Origin: Bacteroidota bacterium
Lineage (GTDB): Bacteria; Bacteroidota; Bacteroidia; Bacteroidales; FEN-979
Reading direction: 5' to 3'
DNA: 34,464 nucleotides
NCBI GenBank assembly: GCA_014382125.1
Contig: JACNKI010000106.1
Location: forward strand, 1 to 34,464
A model generated the notes under the pieces. That model was given only the letters and a program-made list of their open reading frames with translations, ran no database searches and was not told the DNA's origin. The position numbers and the translations under genes were made by a program. Shown here piece by piece: positions 3,902 through 30,644 of this stretch (the first letter of the stretch is position 1; each line of letters starts with the position of its first letter).

Positions 3902-3971
3902 ACGTGGGACGTAGGACGTAAGACGTAGGACGTGAGACGTAGGACGTGAGACGTGGAACGTGGGACGTAAC
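3902..3971. repeat. Tandem heptamer array, 10 units of ACGTRRG type
   Basis: Ten head-to-tail 7-base units follow the stop codon of the M49-like gene: ACGTGGG, ACGTAGG, ACGTAAG, ACGTAGG, ACGTGAG, ACGTAGG, ACGTGAG, ACGTGGA, ACGTGGG, ACGTAAC. The ACGT core is invariant and bases 5-7 vary among purines (the last unit ends in C). It is the longest of about ten 7/8-base arrays in the window. Confidence 0.9.
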
Positions 3972-6681: not shown

Positions 6682-9600
6682 TCACACCCTTGAATCTGCC
6701 TTCACCGCCATCTTCGCCATCTTCTCCGCTTCCAGACTGGGAAACCCAAATTCTTCGACGATCTTCCCCAGGATCAGATAGATACCGTCGCCCCTAAAAG
6801 GATATTTACTAGCAGTCTGAGGAAAATGCACCGTATCAAAAAACTGTCCGTGAACATCGATGAAGGTGCCGAAGTGCATCCACTCCTTTTTTGCAGTTCG
6901 TACATATTTGATCGTGACCAGCAACCCCAGCATCCGTACCTTTTTTCCAATTAACTGGTTCATCTCTGCAGCCATGATCTCTCCCCGGAAATTGGTTTCA
7001 AGCAGATCGAACCAGGTATGGCTGACCGGCCAGCCAAGGAGTTCTATTTCATCATAAACCTCCTCTAACTGCGATTGCCAGAGTGTGGGGAGCTCAAATT
7101 TCTTGACAGGAGTCTCGAAAAGGGTCGAAGGTCGTCCTTCGCCCCTCGTCCTTCCAAGCATCATATGCGCTTCCCAGAGCAGCGTGGCTTTCGGTTTCCC
7201 GGTAAAGCGGAAGGCGCCGACACGAATCAGGATAATGAGTTGGTCCAGGGTAACCGGAACACGTTGAATGAAATCTTCCAGACTGACATAGAGCCTTTCG
7301 TGCTTTCTCCCCTGATCCTCGTTCTTCGTCCCTCGTCCTTCGTCCTTCCCCCCCCGCTCTGCGCTGATCGCTTTCCCCAGCTGGTATTCGAGGTTTGCAA
7401 CGTGAATAAATCCCACATAAATATCCTTTTCTCCGCGCAAACACGTTTTGTAACCACCATTGTTAACACAAGGCAAATGCATCATGGCTCCCCAGTTCTT
7501 TGCTTCATTCATATAAACCCAGGAAGGATAAAATCCCCCGAAATTATTGATCACCCCTACCATGAATTCAAGCGGATAGTGAGCTTTCAGGTAGAGGCTC
7601 TGGTAGCTCTCAACAGCATAGGACGCCGAGTGAGCTTTTGAGAAGGAGTAGCCGGCAAACGACTCGATCTGGCGCCACACCTCTTTGGTGATCTTATCAG
7701 GATATCCGGCCTTCTTGCAGTTGGCAAAGAACTTATCAATGATTCGTTGCAACTCCTTCTTTGACCGGTACTTCCCGCTCATGGCACGCCTTATCACATC
7801 CGACTCGCTCAGATCAAGGCCTGCAAAGTGGTGACAGATCTTCAGCACATCCTCCTGATAGACCATCACGCCATAGGTCTCCTGCAGTTGCTCTTCCATA
7901 ATGGGATGGAGGTAGTTGAACTTGTCCGGATTATGGAACCGGTAGATATACTCTTTCATCATGCCAGAGCGAGCTACACCAGGTCGTATGATCGAGCTGG
8001 CTGCCACCAGGGTCCGGTAGTCTTCGCACCGGAGCTTCTTCAGCAACCCACGCATGGCCGGACTCTCTACATAAAAACAGCCGATGGTCTGCGCCGATTG
8101 CAGCAACTCTCTGACTTTGGGGTCCTTTTTAAACTGCCCGACATTGTGGACATCTACGCTGATATTTCGGTTTCGGTTGACGATTCCGGCTGTTTCATAA
8201 ATGTGTCCGATCCCCCGCTGACTGAGAATATCCAGTTTCTCAAACCCAATATCCTCGGCGACATACATATCCCACTGGGTGGTGGGGAACCCTTTCGGAG
8301 GAAGGTCCAGAGCCGTATAACAGTTGACTGGCTTTTCGGAGATCAGGACACCGCCGGCATGGATGCTCCGGATATTCGGAAAATCCGTCATCATCTCTCC
8401 TATCCGGCTGATCTTCTCAATGATACTGTTCCGGTTCAGTATCTCCTCCGGGTGCTTCAGGAAGGCATCTATCTCCCCTTTCGGTAAACCATGTACCTTA
8501 CCCAATTCCCTGTAAATCGATTTTCCTTTGAAAGTCGACATCGCCCCCAGCAGAGCAGTATGTTCATGACCATATCGTTTAAATATGTAGTCGAGTACTT
8601 CATCGCGCTCCTTCCATGAGTAGTCGATATCGAAGTCGGGAGGCGATGTGCGTTTAGGGTTGATGAAACGTTCGAAGTAGAGATCGAGTTCGATAGGATC
8701 TACGTTAGTGATCTTCAGGCAGTAAGCGACAATGCTATTGGCGCCGCTCCCCCTGCCTACATGATAAAACCCGCGTGACATGGAGTACCTGATTACATCC
8801 CATGCGATCAGAAAGTAGGCGGCAAAACCCATCTTACAGATGATATCGATCTCGTGACGGATCCGGTTTCGCGCTTCAGGATTGTTTTTACCATACCGGT
8901 ACTCCAGTCCATCGAACGCCAGTTTCTCCAGCAGAATCTGATCATCATATATATCCCCGGTAAAAGTTCGTTTGTTCTTACACTCCCGGAAATCAAAATC
9001 GATACTGCACTCATCTATCAGTTTCTCCGTGTTCCGGATGATCTCCTGATACTCCCGGAAAGGTTCCAGTAACTTATCCGCTGGCCTCATCACCTCTTCT
9101 GCAGAAGCCAGCTGCTGAGGCTCAAGCCTGGAAAGCAGAATATTATGATCAATCGCCCGCAGATTTCTGTGCAACTCCCAGGTAGCCCTGTCGGCAATCG
9201 TAACCGGCGCCATGATGACCATTCGGTCCAGCTGGTGGCGGTGACGAGAGAGTATGATAGGATTGACATCAGAGGGAGAGAGACCAATCAATGTATCAGG
9301 TAGCGAGGTAGCGAGATGGCGAGGTAGCGAAATTTCGCTACTTTGAAATGGGTACACCACCACCACATGCTCCAACTCCGGCGCCTTATCAGGTAATGGT
9401 TGATTTCCAAGAGTATGATGGCTGAGGAGCTCGTTCAGTTCCCGGAAGCCTTCATTGTTTTTTGCCAGTCCGATATAGAGCAATCGATCCTCCCGGCGAA
9501 ACTCAATCCCTGCAATGGGCTTAACCCCTTTCTCTTTGCAGACAGCGACAAAGTCCATGATCCCCGTAGAGTTATTGATATCGGTGAGCGCCATTGCAGG

Positions 9601-9690
9601 AATACCGTATGCTACAGCCTGCTCTACCAGTTTCTCGATAGAGAGCGTGCCGTAACGGAGAGAGTAATATGAGTGACAGTTTAGGTACAT
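6682..9690 (-). CDS. dnaE: Second DnaE-type DNA polymerase III alpha subunit (DnaE2/ImuC-like)
   Basis: The 1002-residue protein is shorter than a replicative DnaE (about 1160). Residues 1-200 form a PHP domain with an altered metal site: TDINN (36-40) stands where metal-binding PHP domains have TDH. The polymerase site is intact, with PDFDID (351-356) and a third Asp in FEKLDILS (Asp487). Also conserved are VGRGSGANS (311-319), SIHAGGVLIS (442-451) and YSFSKAHSASYAVES. A C-terminal OB fold (about 912-990) is present; the tau-binding tail is absent. Its ATG (9688-9690) lies inside the 3' end of the Y-polymerase gene, a 10-base overlap suggesting translational coupling. With that gene and the divergent LexA-like regulator it forms a translesion-synthesis cassette. 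Three 7/8-base tandem arrays are embedded in frame (residues about 120-131, 788-799 and 846-854), all in variable segments. Confidence 0.9.
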   Translation of the reverse strand: MYLNCHSYYSLRYGTLSIEKLVEQAVAYGIPAMALTDINNSTGIMDFVAVCKEKGVKPIAGIEFRREDRLLYIGLAKNNEGFRELNELLSHHTLGNQPLPDKAPELEHVVVVYPFQSSEISLPRHLATSLPDTLIGLSPSDVNPIILSRHRHQLDRMVIMAPVTIADRATWELHRNLRAIDHNILLSRLEPQQLASAEEVMRPADKLLEPFREYQEIIRNTEKLIDECSIDFDFRECKNKRTFTGDIYDDQILLEKLAFDGLEYRYGKNNPEARNRIRHEIDIICKMGFAAYFLIAWDVIRYSMSRGFYHVGRGSGANSIVAYCLKITNVDPIELDLYFERFINPKRTSPPDFDIDYSWKERDEVLDYIFKRYGHEHTALLGAMSTFKGKSIYRELGKVHGLPKGEIDAFLKHPEEILNRNSIIEKISRIGEMMTDFPNIRSIHAGGVLISEKPVNCYTALDLPPKGFPTTQWDMYVAEDIGFEKLDILSQRGIGHIYETAGIVNRNRNISVDVHNVGQFKKDPKVRELLQSAQTIGCFYVESPAMRGLLKKLRCEDYRTLVAASSIIRPGVARSGMMKEYIYRFHNPDKFNYLHPIMEEQLQETYGVMVYQEDVLKICHHFAGLDLSESDVIRRAMSGKYRSKKELQRIIDKFFANCKKAGYPDKITKEVWRQIESFAGYSFSKAHSASYAVESYQSLYLKAHYPLEFMVGVINNFGGFYPSWVYMNEAKNWGAMMHLPCVNNGGYKTCLRGEKDIYVGFIHVANLEYQLGKAISAERGGKDEGRGTKNEDQGRKHERLYVSLEDFIQRVPVTLDQLIILIRVGAFRFTGKPKATLLWEAHMMLGRTRGEGRPSTLFETPVKKFELPTLWQSQLEEVYDEIELLGWPVSHTWFDLLETNFRGEIMAAEMNQLIGKKVRMLGLLVTIKYVRTAKKEWMHFGTFIDVHGQFFDTVHFPQTASKYPFRGDGIYLILGKIVEEFGFPSLEAEKMAKMAVKADSRV
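7132..7155. repeat. Short heptamer array inside the DnaE-type gene (3 units)
   Basis: The plus strand reads TCGTCCT, TCGCCCC, TCGTCCT and a trailing TCC. On the coding strand it gives the segment around GRTRGEGRPS (residues about 847-856). Confidence 0.6.
7315..7349. repeat. Heptamer array inside the DnaE-type gene (5 units)
   Basis: The units on the plus strand are ATCCTCG, TTCTTCG, TCCCTCG, TCCTTCG and TCCTTCC, followed by a run of C. The coding strand yields the charged segment GGKDEGRGTKNEDQG (about 790-804), which looks foreign to the protein family. Confidence 0.8.
9299..9330. repeat. Octamer array inside the DnaE-type gene (4 units)
   Basis: The units are GGTAGCGA, GGTAGCGA, GATGGCGA and GGTAGCGA. 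They encode part of the PHP-domain segment SEISLPRHLATSL on the minus strand. The array runs into the perfect palindrome at 9324-9341. Confidence 0.85.
9324..9341. repeat. Perfect 18-bp palindrome at the end of the octamer array
   Basis: GTAGCGAAATTTCGCTAC is its own reverse complement. Its left half continues the GGTAGCGA octamers, and its right half begins the same motif in the opposite orientation. It lies within coding sequence. Confidence 0.75.
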
Positions 9691-10829
9691 GCCACTCCAC
9701 TCCTCACAATCTTGCGTCCATACTTTCTACGGACATGATCCAACGCCTGGTAAAGGTTGATCATCTCGGTACTCTCTTCAAACAAATTCAGTTGCGGATT
9801 ACCGGAGATAAGGCTACTGAAACGAACACCGATAAGACGGATCAGCATCCGGCGCTGATAAAGCCGGTCGAACAACTCCTTCACCACCGGGATCAGCACA
9901 TGATCAAACGCCGTATAGGGAACCTTCTTTTGCAATGTATGCGTATCGAAATTCGAGTAGCGGATCTTCACCGTGATGCAGGAGGTGAGTTTCTGTTTAT
10001 CCCGCAGTTCATAGGATATCTTCTCCACCATCTTTACCAGGATCTCTTTCATTCGCACAATATCGATGCTGTCCTGATCAAACGTATTTTCCGTACTCAC
10101 CGATTTCGCATCACGGTAAGGCCTGACCGGTGTCCGGTCAATCCCGTTCGCTTTTTCCCAGATTACAATACCGTTCTTACCCATTACCCGCTGCAGCATC
10201 TCTACCGGCATCTGGCTGAGGGTATCGATCGTGACAATGCCCATGGAGCGAAGCAAGAAATAGCTTTTCTTCCCGATCATCGGGATCTTCCGGATCGACA
10301 ACGGCGCCAGAAAAGGCTTTACGGCCTCGCCTGGAATCTGGAGCTCTCCGTTGGGCTTGGCTTCTCCGGTAGCGATCTTCGACACCGTTTTGTTCACAGA
10401 GAGTCCAAACGATATAGGCAATCCCGTATTCTTCGTGATCGTCTGCCGGAGCTCATGTGTCCATTTCAATAAACCAAAAAAACGATCCATCCCTGTCACA
10501 TCGATATAATGCTCATCGATAGAGGCTTTTTCATGTAGCGGCGACTGCTCCGCAATAATATCTGTGACCGTATGCGAATAGTTTGAGTACAACTCCATGT
10601 CGCCACGAATAAAAACGGCATCGCGACAAAGCAATCGTGCCATCTTCATCGGCATAGCGGAATGAACGCCAAATGTCCTTGCCTCATAGCTGCAACTGGC
10701 CACGACCCCACGGTCAGACATACCACCGATGATCACTGGCTTCCCCTCTAATTCAGCGTTAACAAGACGTTCTACCGACACAAAAAAGGTGTCGAGATCC
10801 AGATGTACTATGTTGCGGGAGTGATTAAT
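9681..10829 (-). CDS. dinB: Y-family DNA polymerase (DinB/Pol IV type) with a non-standard start
   Basis: It bypasses damaged template bases. Visible motifs are SIDEHYIDVTG (catalytic Asp/Glu pair), YEARTFGVHSAMP in the fingers, the helix-hairpin-helix segment around IPMIGKKSYFLLRSMGI, a little-finger domain and the beta-clamp peptide QLNLF near the C-terminus. The only standard start is the GTG at 10781 (366 residues), but it would remove the first catalytic Asp. The same frame continues upstream as NHSRNIVHLDLDTFFVSVERL, the normal beginning of this family, until a stop at about 10838. No ATG, GTG or TTG exists there; ATT (10827-10829) or ATA (10809-10811) are the only plausible initiators. 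I annotate from the ATT (382 residues). The stop at 9681 overlaps the DnaE start. The inferred start lies within an operator-like palindrome. Confidence 0.87.
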   Translation of the reverse strand: MNHSRNIVHLDLDTFFVSVERLVNAELEGKPVIIGGMSDRGVVASCSYEARTFGVHSAMPMKMARLLCRDAVFIRGDMELYSNYSHTVTDIIAEQSPLHEKASIDEHYIDVTGMDRFFGLLKWTHELRQTITKNTGLPISFGLSVNKTVSKIATGEAKPNGELQIPGEAVKPFLAPLSIRKIPMIGKKSYFLLRSMGIVTIDTLSQMPVEMLQRVMGKNGIVIWEKANGIDRTPVRPYRDAKSVSTENTFDQDSIDIVRMKEILVKMVEKISYELRDKQKLTSCITVKIRYSNFDTHTLQKKVPYTAFDHVLIPVVKELFDRLYQRRMLIRLIGVRFSSLISGNPQLNLFEESTEMINLYQALDHVRRKYGRKIVRSGVACT

Positions 10830-10838
10830 TTCTAATCA
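10822..10838. promoter_or_regulatory. Operator-like inverted repeat 1, TGATTA-N5-TAATCA
   Basis: The 6-base arms are perfect (TGATTA at 10822-10827, TAATCA at 10833-10838). The repeat sits in the gap between the divergent regulator and Y-polymerase genes and covers the inferred polymerase start. Its twin is centred 23 bases away at 10846-10860, so the two sites lie on nearly the same helix face (about two turns). Confidence 0.6.
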
Positions 10839-10840
10839 TT

Positions 10841-10870
10841 TTTGCGATTACAATATAATCATTATATTTG
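10841..10870 (+). promoter_or_regulatory. Promoter of the LexA-like regulator (TTTG-N18-TATATTTG)
   Basis: The -33 TTTG is at 10841-10844 and the -7 TATATTTG is at 10863-10870, 18 bases apart. This is the best match to the Bacteroidota consensus in the window. Transcription would begin near 10875, about 15 bases before the ATG at 10891. Inverted repeat 2 lies between the two elements. Confidence 0.65.
10846..10860. promoter_or_regulatory. Operator-like inverted repeat 2, GATTA-N5-TAATC
   Basis: Perfect 5-base arms (GATTA at 10846-10850, TAATC at 10856-10860) share the core and spacer length of inverted repeat 1. The site fills the space between the -33 and -7 elements of the regulator promoter, so a bound protein would block RNA polymerase. 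The obvious candidate ligand is the adjacent HTH/S24 protein. Confidence 0.6.
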
Positions 10871-10890
10871 CACTACCAAAATTCTCAACC

Positions 10891-11694
10891 ATGTTTTTTA
10901 GTTCGAACATTAAATTTTTACGGAAACGAAGAGGGCGAACACAGGATGAAGTAGCCATAACGCTGGAGATGAAGCGATCGACACTCAGCGGGTACGAAAA
11001 CAATGTAGCCCAGGCCGGGATGGAAGCGTTGATCGGATTCTCAAACTACTTTAAGATAGCAATCGATACGCTGGTCAGAGTGGATCTCACTGCACTTCCT
11101 GAAAGTCAGCTCCGGCAACTTGAACGGGGGTATGATGTATTCATCAAAGGGACAAATCTGAGAATCCTGGCAACGACTGTCGGCATTGATAACGAAGATA
11201 ACATTGAGCTGATATCGGAGAGAGCGAAAGCGGGTTACAGCAGTGGTTTTGCCGATCCGGAGTATATCAGCATCCTGCCCACATTCCGGCTACCCTTTCT
11301 GTCAAAGCAGAAAAAATACCGTACCTTTCAGATCAGCGGGGATTCTATGCTCCCCATCCCCCATGGCGCTTACGTCACCGGAGTCTTTGTCCAGGATTGG
11401 AACACCATCCGGGACAAAGATGCATACATTATCCTGACAGTTAATGAGGGGATCGTGTTTAAAGTGGTAGAGAATCATATTAAGCAAGAGGGGAAGTTAA
11501 TTTTGCACTCGATGAATCCACTTTATGATCCTTACGACCTGGAAGTGAAGGATATTCGGGAAGTATGGCAGTTTGTACATTACATCAGCAATGAGATCCC
11601 TGAGAATGTAACAAGCGAGAATTACCATCTGGTTGAGAGTGTCAAGAAGCTCACTAAGGAAGTAAAAAGCATTCAGGCAAAACTAAAAATCTAA
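10891..11694 (+). CDS. LexA-like repressor: XRE-type HTH plus S24 self-cleaving domain
   Basis: Residues 1-62 form an XRE helix-turn-helix (FLRKRRGRTQDEVAITLEMKR, then STLSGYENNVAQAGMEAL). Residues about 112-235 form an S24/LexA-type domain. It has a candidate Ala-Gly cleavage bond (Ala114-Gly115 in ERAKAGYSSG), the catalytic Ser in ISGDSMLP (Ser152) and the Lys in VFKVVEN (Lys191). Residues 238-267 are a helical, Lys/Glu-rich tail not found in E. coli LexA (202 residues). The known logic of this fold is RecA-filament-stimulated self-cleavage that lifts repression. The gene diverges from the Y-polymerase/DnaE pair and has two matching inverted repeats in its upstream region. Control of itself and of the polymerases is therefore a strong inference. 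It is not the canonical winged-helix LexA, since its DNA-binding domain is of the phage-CI/XRE kind. Confidence 0.88.
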   Translation: MFFSSNIKFLRKRRGRTQDEVAITLEMKRSTLSGYENNVAQAGMEALIGFSNYFKIAIDTLVRVDLTALPESQLRQLERGYDVFIKGTNLRILATTVGIDNEDNIELISERAKAGYSSGFADPEYISILPTFRLPFLSKQKKYRTFQISGDSMLPIPHGAYVTGVFVQDWNTIRDKDAYIILTVNEGIVFKVVENHIKQEGKLILHSMNPLYDPYDLEVKDIREVWQFVHYISNEIPENVTSENYHLVESVKKLTKEVKSIQAKLKI

Positions 11695-20695: not shown

Positions 20696-21706
20696 CTAAG
20701 ATTGCTCTTTTAAAACCTCCATTATTTTCTCTTCCAGCTCATCTGCGAGTTCAGGATTGTCGATCAGGATCTTTTTCACTGAATCTCTACCCTGCCCCAA
20801 TTTCGTGTCACCGTAACTGAACCAGGATCCACTCTTTTTCACAATATTAAGATCTGTCGCCAGATCCAGAATCTCAAAAATACGGGAGATTCCTTCTCCG
20901 AAAATAATGTCGAACTCAGCTCTGCGGAAGGGAGGTGCAACTTTGTTTTTGACAACTTTCACTTTCACCCGGTTACCAATAGCTTCATCGCCCTCTTTGA
21001 TCTGCGACATTCTGCGGATATCGAGGCGCACAGATGAGTAAAACTTCAACGCATTCCCACCAGTAGTAGTCTCCGGATTTCCAAACATGATCCCGATCTT
21101 CTCTCTAAGCTGGTTGATGAAGATGCAGCATGTAGCCGTTTTGGAGATCGTGGAAGTGAGTTTCCTGAGAGCCTGGGACATCAGGCGTGCCTGCAATCCC
21201 ATTTTGGAATCGCCCATCTCCCCTTCAATTTCACTCCGGGGAGTAAGCGCTGCAACCGAGTCGATCACGATGATATCAATGGCTCCCGATCGAATCAGAT
21301 TCTCTGTAATCTCCAGTGCCTGCTCTCCGTTATCCGGCTGTGATACCAATAGGTTCTCCACATCAACACCAAGCTTTTGAGCGTAGAACCGGTCAAAAGC
21401 ATGTTCAGCATCCACAAAGGCAGCGATCCCTCCAGCTTTTTGAGCTTCAGCGAGCGCATGGAGTGCAAGAGTTGTTTTTCCGGACGATTCAGGACCGTAA
21501 ATCTCAATTACCCGTCCCCGGGGAAGTCCGCCAATCCCCAACGCCGCATCCAGTCCGATCGAACCTGTTTTGATCACCTCTACATTTTCTACCGGGGAGT
21601 CGCCCAGTTTCATAACTGTTCCCCGCCCATATGTTTTCTCCAGTTTGTCAAGAGTCAGTTGAAGGGCTTTCAGCTTTTCCTTGTTTACATCTTCTTCCTT
21701 TGTCAT
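20696..21706 (-). CDS. recA: Recombinase RecA
   Basis: The 336-residue protein contains Walker [10 protein letters not shown] (71-79), the core segments [11 protein letters not shown] and [23 protein letters not shown], the L1/L2 regions ([37 protein letters not shown]) and the C-terminal acidic tail. It drives strand exchange and stimulates self-cleavage of LexA/S24-type proteins. This matters here because such a regulator lies 9 kb away. The start is supported by a strong Shine-Dalgarno (GGAGG at 21711-21715, four bases from the ATG), unusual in this phylum, and by a stem-loop just upstream. A palindrome at 21819-21844 overlaps a candidate -7 element. Confidence 0.97.
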
Positions 21707-29959: not shown

Positions 29960-30574
29960 TTGTACAACCTACCGTCAAAACTATTTGAGAACGCAGTTAA
30001 CGAGCTATCCAGCCTTCCTGGGATCGGTAAGAAAACCGCCCTGCGCATGGCCCTGCACCTGCTCAGATGTTCTTCGGAAGAGGTAGAATCCTTCGGGAGC
30101 TCTGTAATCAAAATGCGTAATGAGGTGATTTTTTGCTCTCAATGTGGAAATATATCCGATAAAGAGTGTTGTGAGATTTGCTCCAGCCCGAAACGGGATG
30201 CCTCAATTATATGTGTGGTGGAAGATATCCGTGATGTGATGGCCATTGAAAATACCGCACAATACACCGGTGTTTACCATGTCCTGGGAGGCATCATCTC
30301 TCCTATCGAAGGAATTGGCCCTCAAGACCTTAACATCGAGCATCTGATTGTCAGGGCTTCTACTGAGGGGAGTAAGGAGGTCATCCTGGCCCTGCCAACA
30401 ACCATTGAAGGGGATACGACTAACTTTTATCTTTACAAGAAACTGAATCCATTGAATGTGACGATCACTATGATCGCCCGTGGGATCAACGTGGGTGATG
30501 AACTTGAACATACTGATGAGGTTACTCTGGGGAGGTCAATCCTGAATCGGACACCCTATCATGTAGTGAGGTAG
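29960..30574 (+). CDS. recR: Recombination mediator RecR
   Basis: RecR works with RecO (and RecF) to load RecA on gapped DNA. The start is TTG at 29960: there is no in-frame ATG upstream, and the N-terminus [34 protein letters not shown] matches the family from its first residues. The 204-residue protein contains the helix-hairpin-helix LPGIGKKTA, the zinc finger [17 protein letters not shown] (Cys59, 62, 71, 74) and the Toprim domain ([14 protein letters not shown], then [16 protein letters not shown]). The last codons (VVR and stop) are made of an octamer tandem array (30563-30602), so the C-terminus may have been reshaped by repeat insertion. Together with recA and nth it makes the region rich in repair genes. 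Confidence 0.95.
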
Positions 30575-30602
30575 GGAAGTAGTGAGGCAGGGAGGTATTG
30601 AG
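30563..30602. repeat. Tandem octamer array spanning the recR stop codon (5 units)
   Basis: The units are GTAGTGAG, GTAGGGAA, GTAGTGAG, GCAGGGAG and GTATTGAG. The first two units supply the last recR codons and the TAG stop (30572-30574). Confidence 0.85.
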
Positions 30603-30612
30603 CGGGATATAT

Positions 30613-30644
30613 TGCCTTCATGCCTCCATGCCTTCATCCCTCTC
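30613..30644. repeat. Tandem octamer array spanning the stop of the small RHH-like gene (4 units)
   Basis: The units are TGCCTTCA, TGCCTCCA, TGCCTTCA and TCCCTCTC. The TCA in the first unit (30618-30620) is the stop of the minus-strand gene, whose C-terminal ERDEGMEA is encoded by the array. Confidence 0.8.

Follow-up and report, generated by a model that had tools for sequence, protein, structure and literature searches.

A putative minimal SOS cassette in Bacteroidales-type bacteria: an S24 repressor, a paired operator and two polymerases

Does a LexA-like regulator standing back to back with a Y-family polymerase and a second DnaE form a damage-controlled module distinct from the classical mutasome, and what would connect its genes? 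The question was raised by a stretch of 34,464 nucleotides from a Bacteroidota bacterium (the window), in which an earlier note had described an HTH-S24 protein divergent from a DinB-type polymerase, the latter overlapping a DnaE gene by ten bases. The list of open reading frames and the Pfam matches agreed with this description. The regulator occupies positions 10891-11694 (+), the PolY frame 9681-10835 (-) and DnaE 6682-9690 (-), the last two sharing 10 nt (9681-9690). Absent from the note were a RecA-like tail on PolY, a pair of putative operators, the presence of recA some 10 kb from the cassette and a problem with the start codon of polY. Rfam gave no match anywhere in the window.

Gene products of the locus

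The regulator (267 aa) displayed an HTH_3 domain (Pfam, 6.8e-8) and a Peptidase_S24 domain (1.2e-7). Residues A114, G115, S152 and K191 were invariant in all 11 aligned rows. By analogy with the S24 family (PMC8565304), the Ala114-Gly115 codons (11230-11235, +) presumably specify the self-cleavage site, Ser152 (11344-11346, +, in an invariant GDSM) the nucleophile and Lys191 (11461-11463, +) the general base. A fold search retrieved the lambda-186 hybrid repressor and LexA as top matches; the structure model had a mean pLDDT of 64, which is why only fold-level matches were used. Judged by its residues, the protein is probably an S24 repressor of the self-cleaving type. Its N-terminal HTH_3 domain and its S24 domain with Ala-Gly and Ser-Lys are those of the non-canonical LexA family of Bacteroidetes described in 2021 (PMC8565304). 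A 'LexA family' protein of a Weeksellaceae plasmid, encoded next to dinB-dnaE, was 33 % identical to it over 99 %.

The PolY frame matched IMS (2.9e-44) and IMS_C (2.7e-23). The SIDE, LDLD and QLNLF motifs claimed for it were all found, LDLD only in the extended frame, and the catalytic acids D13, D15, D107 and E108 were invariant in 10 of 10 rows. QLNLF (9780-9794, -; Q348 and F352 invariant in 10/10) is what we take to be a clamp-binding motif. A 21-residue stretch near the C terminus (EMINLYQALDHVRRKYGRKIV, 9705-9767, -) resembled the N terminus of the organism's own RecA with a BLOSUM62 score of 29, reached by none of 1000 shuffles (highest 28). PolY ends shortly after this RecA-NT-like motif, too early to accommodate ImuB-C. 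The source genome, G000, yielded one Y-family match to P0001 (E <= 1e-20).

The polY frame opens at 10835 without any of the start codons ATG, GTG and TTG, the first of which in frame is the GTG at 10781, downstream of LDLD; polY of G000 may thus be poorly translated, or its assembly may be wrong. A decaying cassette, of which the start codon has been lost and the protein is no longer made, is rather unlikely. It would fit the observation that in G002, a member of the same genus, PolY starts with an in-frame ATG inside operator O1 (see below), whereas the corresponding ATG of G000 meets a TAA after four codons. The remaining 376 codons were, however, open and 89 % identical to those of G002, with dN 0.064 and dS 1.44 (dN/dS ~0.045) indicating strong constraint. 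Moreover, a one-base error in this fragmented assembly of 243 contigs would suffice to explain the defect, and translation may begin at a rare start codon, for instance ATT at 10829.

The second DnaE (1002 aa, DnaE2-type) matched DNA_pol3_alpha (6e-64), its finger domain (1.3e-38) and PHP (2e-19); the other DnaE of the source genome is encoded on contig C7. PDFDID and the third aspartate were intact and the PHP site looks degenerate. Both polymerases of the cassette therefore appear to be active as far as their residues tell. In a tree with no named DnaE2B reference, the protein grouped (100/100), though on a branch of 2.03, with DnaE from the dinB-dnaE cassettes of Chryseobacterium and Adhaeribacter, apart from DnaE1 and imuAB-linked DnaE2.

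A classical lexA-imuA-imuB-dnaE2 cassette that has lost imuA would have much the same overall order, and at locus L229, on a Dyadobacter plasmid, a 39 %-identical regulator does face imuA-imuB-dnaE2. Such an origin is nevertheless highly improbable in view of the intact LDLD and SIDE of PolY, its short C-terminal end and the position of DnaE in the tree. No ImuA was encoded at the locus. The single RecA-family match in the 84 %-complete source genome was recA itself, which was also what the ImuA model matched there, and in the 61 genomes nothing exceeded the cut-off of that model, a weak control as 0 of 14 named genomes passed it either. The earlier claim that the module is unlike the classical mutasome was upheld on these grounds, namely two apparently active polymerases, an S24 repressor and no ImuA found.

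The putative operator pair

Two 17-bp sites of the form TGATTA-N5-TAATCA are located 23 bp apart in the gap between the divergent genes. Putative operator O1 (10822-10838) is a perfect dyad and putative operator O2 (10845-10861) deviates from it by one mismatch; both were kept in relatives. The -7 element of Bacteroidota has the consensus TAnnTTTG, and TATATTTG at 10863-10870 (+) fits it, presumably as the candidate -7 element of the regulator gene. O2 is placed between this candidate and a TTTG at 10841-10844. A search of the 160 bases preceding the regulator gene of the window revealed neither CTAA-N5-TTAG nor GGA-N5-TCC.

Across 80 public regulator loci (pairs with at most two mismatches in 18 letters), the spacing was 23 bp in 63, 24 bp in 14 and neither in three, while any other spacing between 18 and 35 bp occurred at zero to four loci. 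When the whole gap was scanned, the 23-bp pair appeared in 58 of the 69 loci with divergent polY and in none of 345 control windows; a scan of 300 bases only recovered it in 35 of 76 loci (score >= 19). At no more than one mismatch, 42 of 61 whole genomes contained the pair and the reversed-pattern control gave 0 in all 61. The regulator was matched in 44 of these genomes (own included), 43 of them at E <= 1e-50; the pair was present in 42 of the latter and in 0 of the 18 others. These genomes are related, so that the counts overstate independence. In G048, the regulator was 40 % identical and no pair was found.

The idea that the three-gene order is conserved in relatives held only in part. 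PolY was divergent from the regulator in 66 of 70 public loci with at least 1.5 kb of sequence there, which, together with the presence of the regulator in most genomes, lifts the observation beyond chance. DnaE, however, stood next to polY in only 34 of 57 public loci with room for it. Yet detached dnaE genes (separated from polY by over 1 kb or located on a different contig) had their own operator pair in 16 of 18 cases, against 0 of 20 for adjacent ones within 1 kb (Fisher, 7e-9), a 1-kb cut chosen after the data were seen; 12 of these 16 belonged to one genus. The two detached genes without a pair at one mismatch or fewer were from G049 and G056, and the former had one at two mismatches (17th of 18). 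One adjacent case, G015, came from an assembly in which the regulator is missing; in G005, a detached case, no more than 166 bases of contig precede dnaE. Of 57 distinct pair places, 39 preceded the regulator, 16 preceded dnaE and two were elsewhere. A pair place on contig C120 of G049, where neighbouring ORFs were without annotation, was taken as chance; another was located on contig C180 of G026.

The frequent separation of dnaE from polY, often by kilobases, and the complete active sites of both enzymes would suit two independent polymerases, PolY being an ordinary Pol IV and DnaE a spare enzyme that is merely co-regulated. This is possible and the less probable option, as the separated dnaE usually keeps the operator pair and PolY carries the RecA-NT motif. 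In addition, complexes based on DnaE2 and PolY, including this type, were reported to have AlphaFold support in a survey of 2026 (PMC12926913). Joint action of PolY and DnaE is accordingly suggested by co-regulation and by published models.

At 22 loci with the pair, the gap also contained an ORF of at least 100 aa, eight times between pair and polY and 14 times between pair and regulator, always transcribed away from the pair. Sixteen of them were four-helix-bundle/23S-rRNA-IVP genes (two below the Pfam cut-off), four GxxExxY/PDDEXK_3, one ORF6N and one an IS200 transposase. Unrelated families at the same place look like insertions, though a recruited role is also possible. The notion that the operators always adjoin polY was rejected owing to the eight loci with an intervening ORF. 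In G046, an SRAP gene replaces polY under the pair. Where relatives have genes separating polY from dnaE, these ORFs look mutually unrelated and were not counted as cassette parts.

Extent of the regulon and proposed mechanism

Whether the repressor serves as a global LexA, with the pair as its strongest site only and weaker single sites controlling other repair genes, was weighed against a narrower role. In relatives with the other two motifs, some nine operons, recA among them, belong to the regulon (PMC8565304), and single sites with one or two mismatches were more numerous in G000 than in the reversed control (195 vs 76 per strand). Against this, sites with at least 11 of 12 positions occurred in none of 29 recA upstream regions (~220 bases each). 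The window's recA (20696-21706, -), which presumably provides the co-protease and the partner of PolY, had no operator pair and a best upstream site of 8/12. Furthermore, zero-mismatch O2 matches in G022, G025 and G027 were found at the cassette only, among the matches listed, and the pair seldom lay away from regulator or dnaE. A global role is therefore improbable. Most likely, the repressor governs little beyond the mutasome and is a minimal SOS switch, since the pair tracks the regulator and the detached dnaE and is missing at recA.

The locus is probably a minimal SOS cassette, in which the repressor would sit on the operator pair and polY-dnaE would be induced jointly after damage. The S24 repressor would bind, perhaps cooperatively, as two dimers to the paired operators and keep the repressor gene as well as the divergently transcribed polY-dnaE unit silent. 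RecA filaments on damaged DNA would trigger self-cleavage at Ala114-Gly115 via Ser152 and Lys191, upon which the cleaved repressor would leave the DNA and PolY and DnaE would be produced together. The RecA-like tail of PolY may then attach it to RecA, and QLNLF to the clamp, while DnaE, with its seemingly degenerate PHP site, would share or take over synthesis past the lesion, resulting in error-prone tolerance.

A further reading, moderately favored, is that Bacteroidales-type bacteria other than the well-studied gut genera possess a single-purpose SOS switch in the style of lambda, in which a CI-like LexA on a fixed arrangement of two 17-bp operators, with centres 23 or 24 bp apart, would control only the mutasome and any small gene that has entered behind it, uncoupled from recA. 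Within it, the reappearance of the pair before dnaE genes located elsewhere would make damage-induced mutagenesis a dedicated, self-contained module rather than a branch of the general SOS response. Both published regulator groups were reported absent from Bacteroidales (PMC8565304); nine of the 25 families in the sample have the present repressor, which implies that part of the order has a damage-type switch. The operator pair offers a short, exact DNA signature for finding and testing such a switch. Its presence before detached dnaE provides natural evidence for a joint requirement of PolY and DnaE and bears on the proposed mutasome of two active polymerases. The carriers are mostly uncultured bacteria.

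Comparison with known systems

The module is not new in its parts. The polymerase pair was in print in 2019 and 2026 as DnaE2B-PolY-RecA, a putative mutasome of 'Bacteroidetes PolY2' with DnaE2, exemplified by Cellulophaga algicola (PMC6511836, PMC12926913). It shares an active Y-family polymerase with a RecA-NT motif, DnaE2, and the lack of ImuA and ImuB-C; the operator is untreated in the portion of the description at hand, and the likeness is to a description, not to named reference sequences. The accessible published work on these enzymes and on the regulator family yielded no description of this operator pair. The pair, as a putative regulatory element, is what this analysis adds, the polymerases and the repressor family having been described already.

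Non-canonical LexA (PMC8565304) displays the same HTH_3 and S24 domains with Ala-Gly and Ser-Lys; it likewise has sites by the gene that encodes it, adjoins dinB-dnaE and has an N5-spaced dyad as operator. Its motifs are CTAA-N5-TTAG, GGA-N5-TCC and a diverged TTAC-N5-GTAA, in contrast to the TGATTA-N5-TAATCA pairs at 23/24 bp found here, and its large recA-containing regulon was not matched. Diverged operator motifs and small regulons are also accepted in that family, and in E. anophelis mitomycin C induced a regulator of the same type together with the opposite gene for an error-prone polymerase (PMC8565304). The minimal regulons of HdiR and UmuDAb likewise have a non-LexA S24 repressor controlling mainly error-prone polymerases (PMC8565304), but they involve other bacterial families and other repressors and were likened without operators.

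Like ImuA-ImuB-DnaE2, the cassette would pair a Y-family protein with a second DnaE under damage control; it differs in that its Y-family member is catalytically intact, no ImuA was found and DnaE belongs to another branch. Lambda CI binds paired 17-bp operators with dyad centres 23-24 bp apart. The cassette resembles it in dyad length and spacing, in its HTH_3-type and S24 domains and in the fold match to the lambda-186 hybrid; in contrast to lambda, no prophage genes were recognized among the identified neighbours, and the genes presumably under control are repair polymerases.

The cassette and its conserved motifs

The window, 34,464 bases of contig C29, carries the regulator gene on the plus strand (10891-11694; 267 aa, HTH_3 and Peptidase_S24 domains), encoding a putative non-canonical LexA-type repressor. 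Divergent from it on the minus strand are the frame of PolY, a Y-family polymerase (9681-10835), and the gene of a second DnaE-type polymerase (dnaE, 6682-9690; 1002 aa). The final ten bases of the PolY frame overlap the start of dnaE, as the earlier note had it. recA, unmentioned there, lies about 10 kb from this cassette (20696-21706, minus strand). The other DnaE of the genome under study (G000, a fragmented assembly of 2.74 Mb, 84% complete) is encoded on contig C7. Regulator and recA shared a contig in 18 of 23 same-family genomes listing both, roughly 7-20 kb apart (hand count), and were found on separate contigs in G041, G043, G046, G048 and G049, from other families. Short tandem repeats (7-, 8- and 14-bp units) occur within the dnaE coding region at 7317-7348 and 9298-9330, and arrays of 7-, 8-, 14- and 16-bp units at 3902-3969 (intergenic) and 30563-30642; several relatives displayed 8-bp repeats upstream of the regulator.

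Ala114, Gly115, Ser152 and Lys191 were invariant among 11 aligned regulators from the window's own and other families; section 13 of PMC8565304 defines self-cleaving S24 proteins by such a cleavage site and dyad. The predicted model of the regulator was poor (pLDDT 64), its best solved matches being a lambda-186 hybrid repressor and LexA. Of the LDLD and SIDE motifs and the clamp motif QLNLF previously read from PolY, the acidic residues of the first two and Q348 and F352 of the third were invariant in ten aligned PolYs. The PolY tail, EMINLYQALDHVRRKYGRKIV, scored 29 against the N terminus of the RecA of G000 (21 letters), a value reached by none of 1000 shuffles (top shuffle 28). This tail corresponds to the RecA-NT motif of PMC6511836. 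DnaE retains both PDFDID and the third Asp. Its PHP site starts with LNCHSYYS, where the other DnaE of G000 has HLHVHSQYS. Several relatives carried additional residues in the PHP region.

A pair of dyads at fixed spacing

Two 17-bp dyads, both putative operators, lie between the divergent genes: O1 (10822-10838, TGATTAATTTCTAATCA) and O2 (10845-10861, CGATTACAATATAATCA), with centres 23 bp apart. O2 is located between TTTG (10841-10844) and TATATTTG (10863-10870), which we take to fit the -33/-7 elements of Bacteroidota promoters.

O1 spans the site of the polY ATG in G002, a member of the same genus, whose PolY starts within O1 with ATG ATT AGA AAT AAA TCA AAT ACC CGC AAC. The corresponding ATG of the window reads ATG ATT AGA AAT TAA, a stop after four codons, and no ATG, GTG or TTG precedes LDLD in the PolY frame. 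Within 10809-10838, polY of the window lacks the in-frame ATG of G002, and O1 is a perfect dyad. The rest of polY is constrained (dN 0.064, dS 1.44), and the start anomaly may stem from misassembly, from initiation at a rare codon or from a recent loss.

The pair was scored as TGA-N8-TAATCA, spacer, YGA-N8-TAATCA (18 letters), a pattern drawn from the window's family, where the 23-bp form was found at up to one mismatch in 30 of 30 loci, window included. Eighty loci were taken from named public records (the best 80 of at least 524 relatives; 49 titled Bacteroidales by hand count). With up to two mismatches in the 18 letters, 63 of them displayed a spacing of 23 bp, 14 others one of 24 bp and three neither; the remaining spacings from 18 to 35 bp gave 0 to 4 matches each. 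The three exceptions had 41 bases upstream (L173), about 340 (L167) or no polY (L178). The 24-bp loci (L186, L195, L202, L204, L207-L210, L212, L214-L217 and L219) did not overlap the 23-bp set, and several came from ruminant or horse samples. Where polY was divergent, the 23-bp pair stood in the gap in 58 of 69 loci, against none of 345 control windows, the best of which had three mismatches. It was still present in 37 of 48 loci (hand count) whose regulator was less than 73% identical to that of the window.

Genomic distribution of the pair

The pair marks a putative regulon. At up to one mismatch it was detected in 42 of 61 whole genomes (reversed pattern, 0/61). A regulator match was found in 43 genomes at E <= 1e-50 and in 44 at E <= 1e-3; all 42 pair-bearing genomes were among those 43, and the 18 others had no pair. 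As indicated by its 57 distinct places (39 upstream of the regulator, 16 upstream of dnaE and two elsewhere), the pair is nearly restricted to regulator, polY and dnaE. Single sites at up to two mismatches run against a tidy regulon picture, with 195 per strand in G000 versus 76 for the reversed control. recA falls outside this set: sites matching at least 11 of 12 positions were found upstream of it in 0 of 29 regions.

In many relatives dnaE is split from polY by other genes. Among 38 genomes retaining the dnaE 5' end, a detached dnaE (on a different contig from polY or more than 1 kb away) had a pair within 1 kb upstream in 16 of 18 cases, 13 of these within 120 bases (hand count), against a second pair in 0 of 20 where dnaE lay within 1 kb (Fisher 7e-9). 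The 1-kb cut was chosen post hoc, yet falls inside a gap, the largest distance without a pair being 964 and the smallest with one 1283. Twelve of the 16 cases came from one genus and so represent fewer independent events. One of the 20 adjacent cases, G015, is an assembly without a regulator, and the contig of G005 stops 166 bases upstream of dnaE. The exceptions were G049, with a two-mismatch pair 484 bases upstream of dnaE, and G056. By best-scoring strand, the pair was oriented towards dnaE as it is towards polY in the window in 14 of 16 cases, with one tie and one opposite (hand count).

In 22 of 69 loci regulator and polY are separated by an ORF of 100 aa or longer (L140, L146, L149, L153, L155, L158, L159, L164, L168, L174-L177, L180, L184, L188, L193, L197, L198, L201, L205 and L213). 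Eight lay between pair and polY and 14 between pair and regulator; all 22 read away from the pair. They comprised 16 four-helix-bundle (23S-rRNA-IVP), four GxxExxY, one ORF6N and one IS200 transposase gene. To us they look like insertions that this orientation allows; they would be co-induced with the cassette if the latter is induced. In G046, from another family, a gene for SRAP (SOS-response-associated peptidase; L134:1927-2904) replaces polY under a perfect pair, facing the regulator.

Proposed mechanism and relation to known systems

The genes, the motifs, the putative operators and their distribution were observed; regulator binding, cleavage, induction and a division of labour between the polymerases are our inferences. 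Two repressor dimers would keep the shared promoter region closed until RecA filaments on damaged DNA trigger self-cleavage of the regulator, upon which PolY and DnaE would be produced together. PolY would hold RecA via its tail and the clamp via QLNLF. With two functional active sites, PolY might carry out insertion opposite the lesion and leave extension to DnaE, or the two might deal with different lesions. In Elizabethkingia anophelis, section 16 of PMC8565304 reports that mitomycin C induces a regulator of this family as well as the gene of the error-prone polymerase opposite.

The earlier note had suggested checking whether the three-gene order is conserved. polY and regulator were divergent in 66 of the 70 loci that extend 1.5 kb or more on that side; dnaE was inside the locus in 34 of 57 with room. 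A Chryseobacterium shandongense plasmid (L231) carries the same three genes, annotated as LexA family regulator, dinB and dnaE. An Adhaeribacter swui plasmid (L220, NZ_CP055155.1) has SRAP, dinB and dnaE in series, its DnaE being 59% identical to that of the window, and on a Dyadobacter chenhuakuii plasmid (L229) a kindred regulator stands opposite imuA-imuB-dnaE2. A tree of 18 rows placed the DnaE of the window with those of the Chryseobacterium and Adhaeribacter dinB-dnaE plasmids (100/100), on a long branch and apart from DnaE1 and imuAB-linked DnaE2. As to the claimed absence of ImuA, its model gave nothing over cut-off in the 61 genomes, a weak negative since it passed in 0 of 14 control genomes; the sub-cut-off match in G000 was recA, the single match there (84% complete) to a RecA-family profile.

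A module of two active polymerases is in print as DnaE2B-PolY-RecA (PMC6511836, PMC12926913), so the polymerase module is known. For the repressor family, PMC8565304 gives CTAA-N5-TTAG and GGA-N5-TCC motifs, with diverged dyads in Weeksellaceae, and mentions two or more copies per promoter. It states both regulator groups to be absent from Bacteroidales, on complete genomes; those used here were mostly metagenome assemblies, with order taken from record titles. A full-text search found no work on LexA in Bacteroidales together with DNA polymerase IV. Listings on non-canonical LexA in Bacteroidetes and on S24 in Bacteroides offered nothing on Bacteroidales beyond that paper, though the motif may stand in supplements. 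What we call the variant is a pair of putative operators at a fixed 23/24-bp spacing, which is almost confined to regulator, polY and dnaE and occurs in Bacteroidales.
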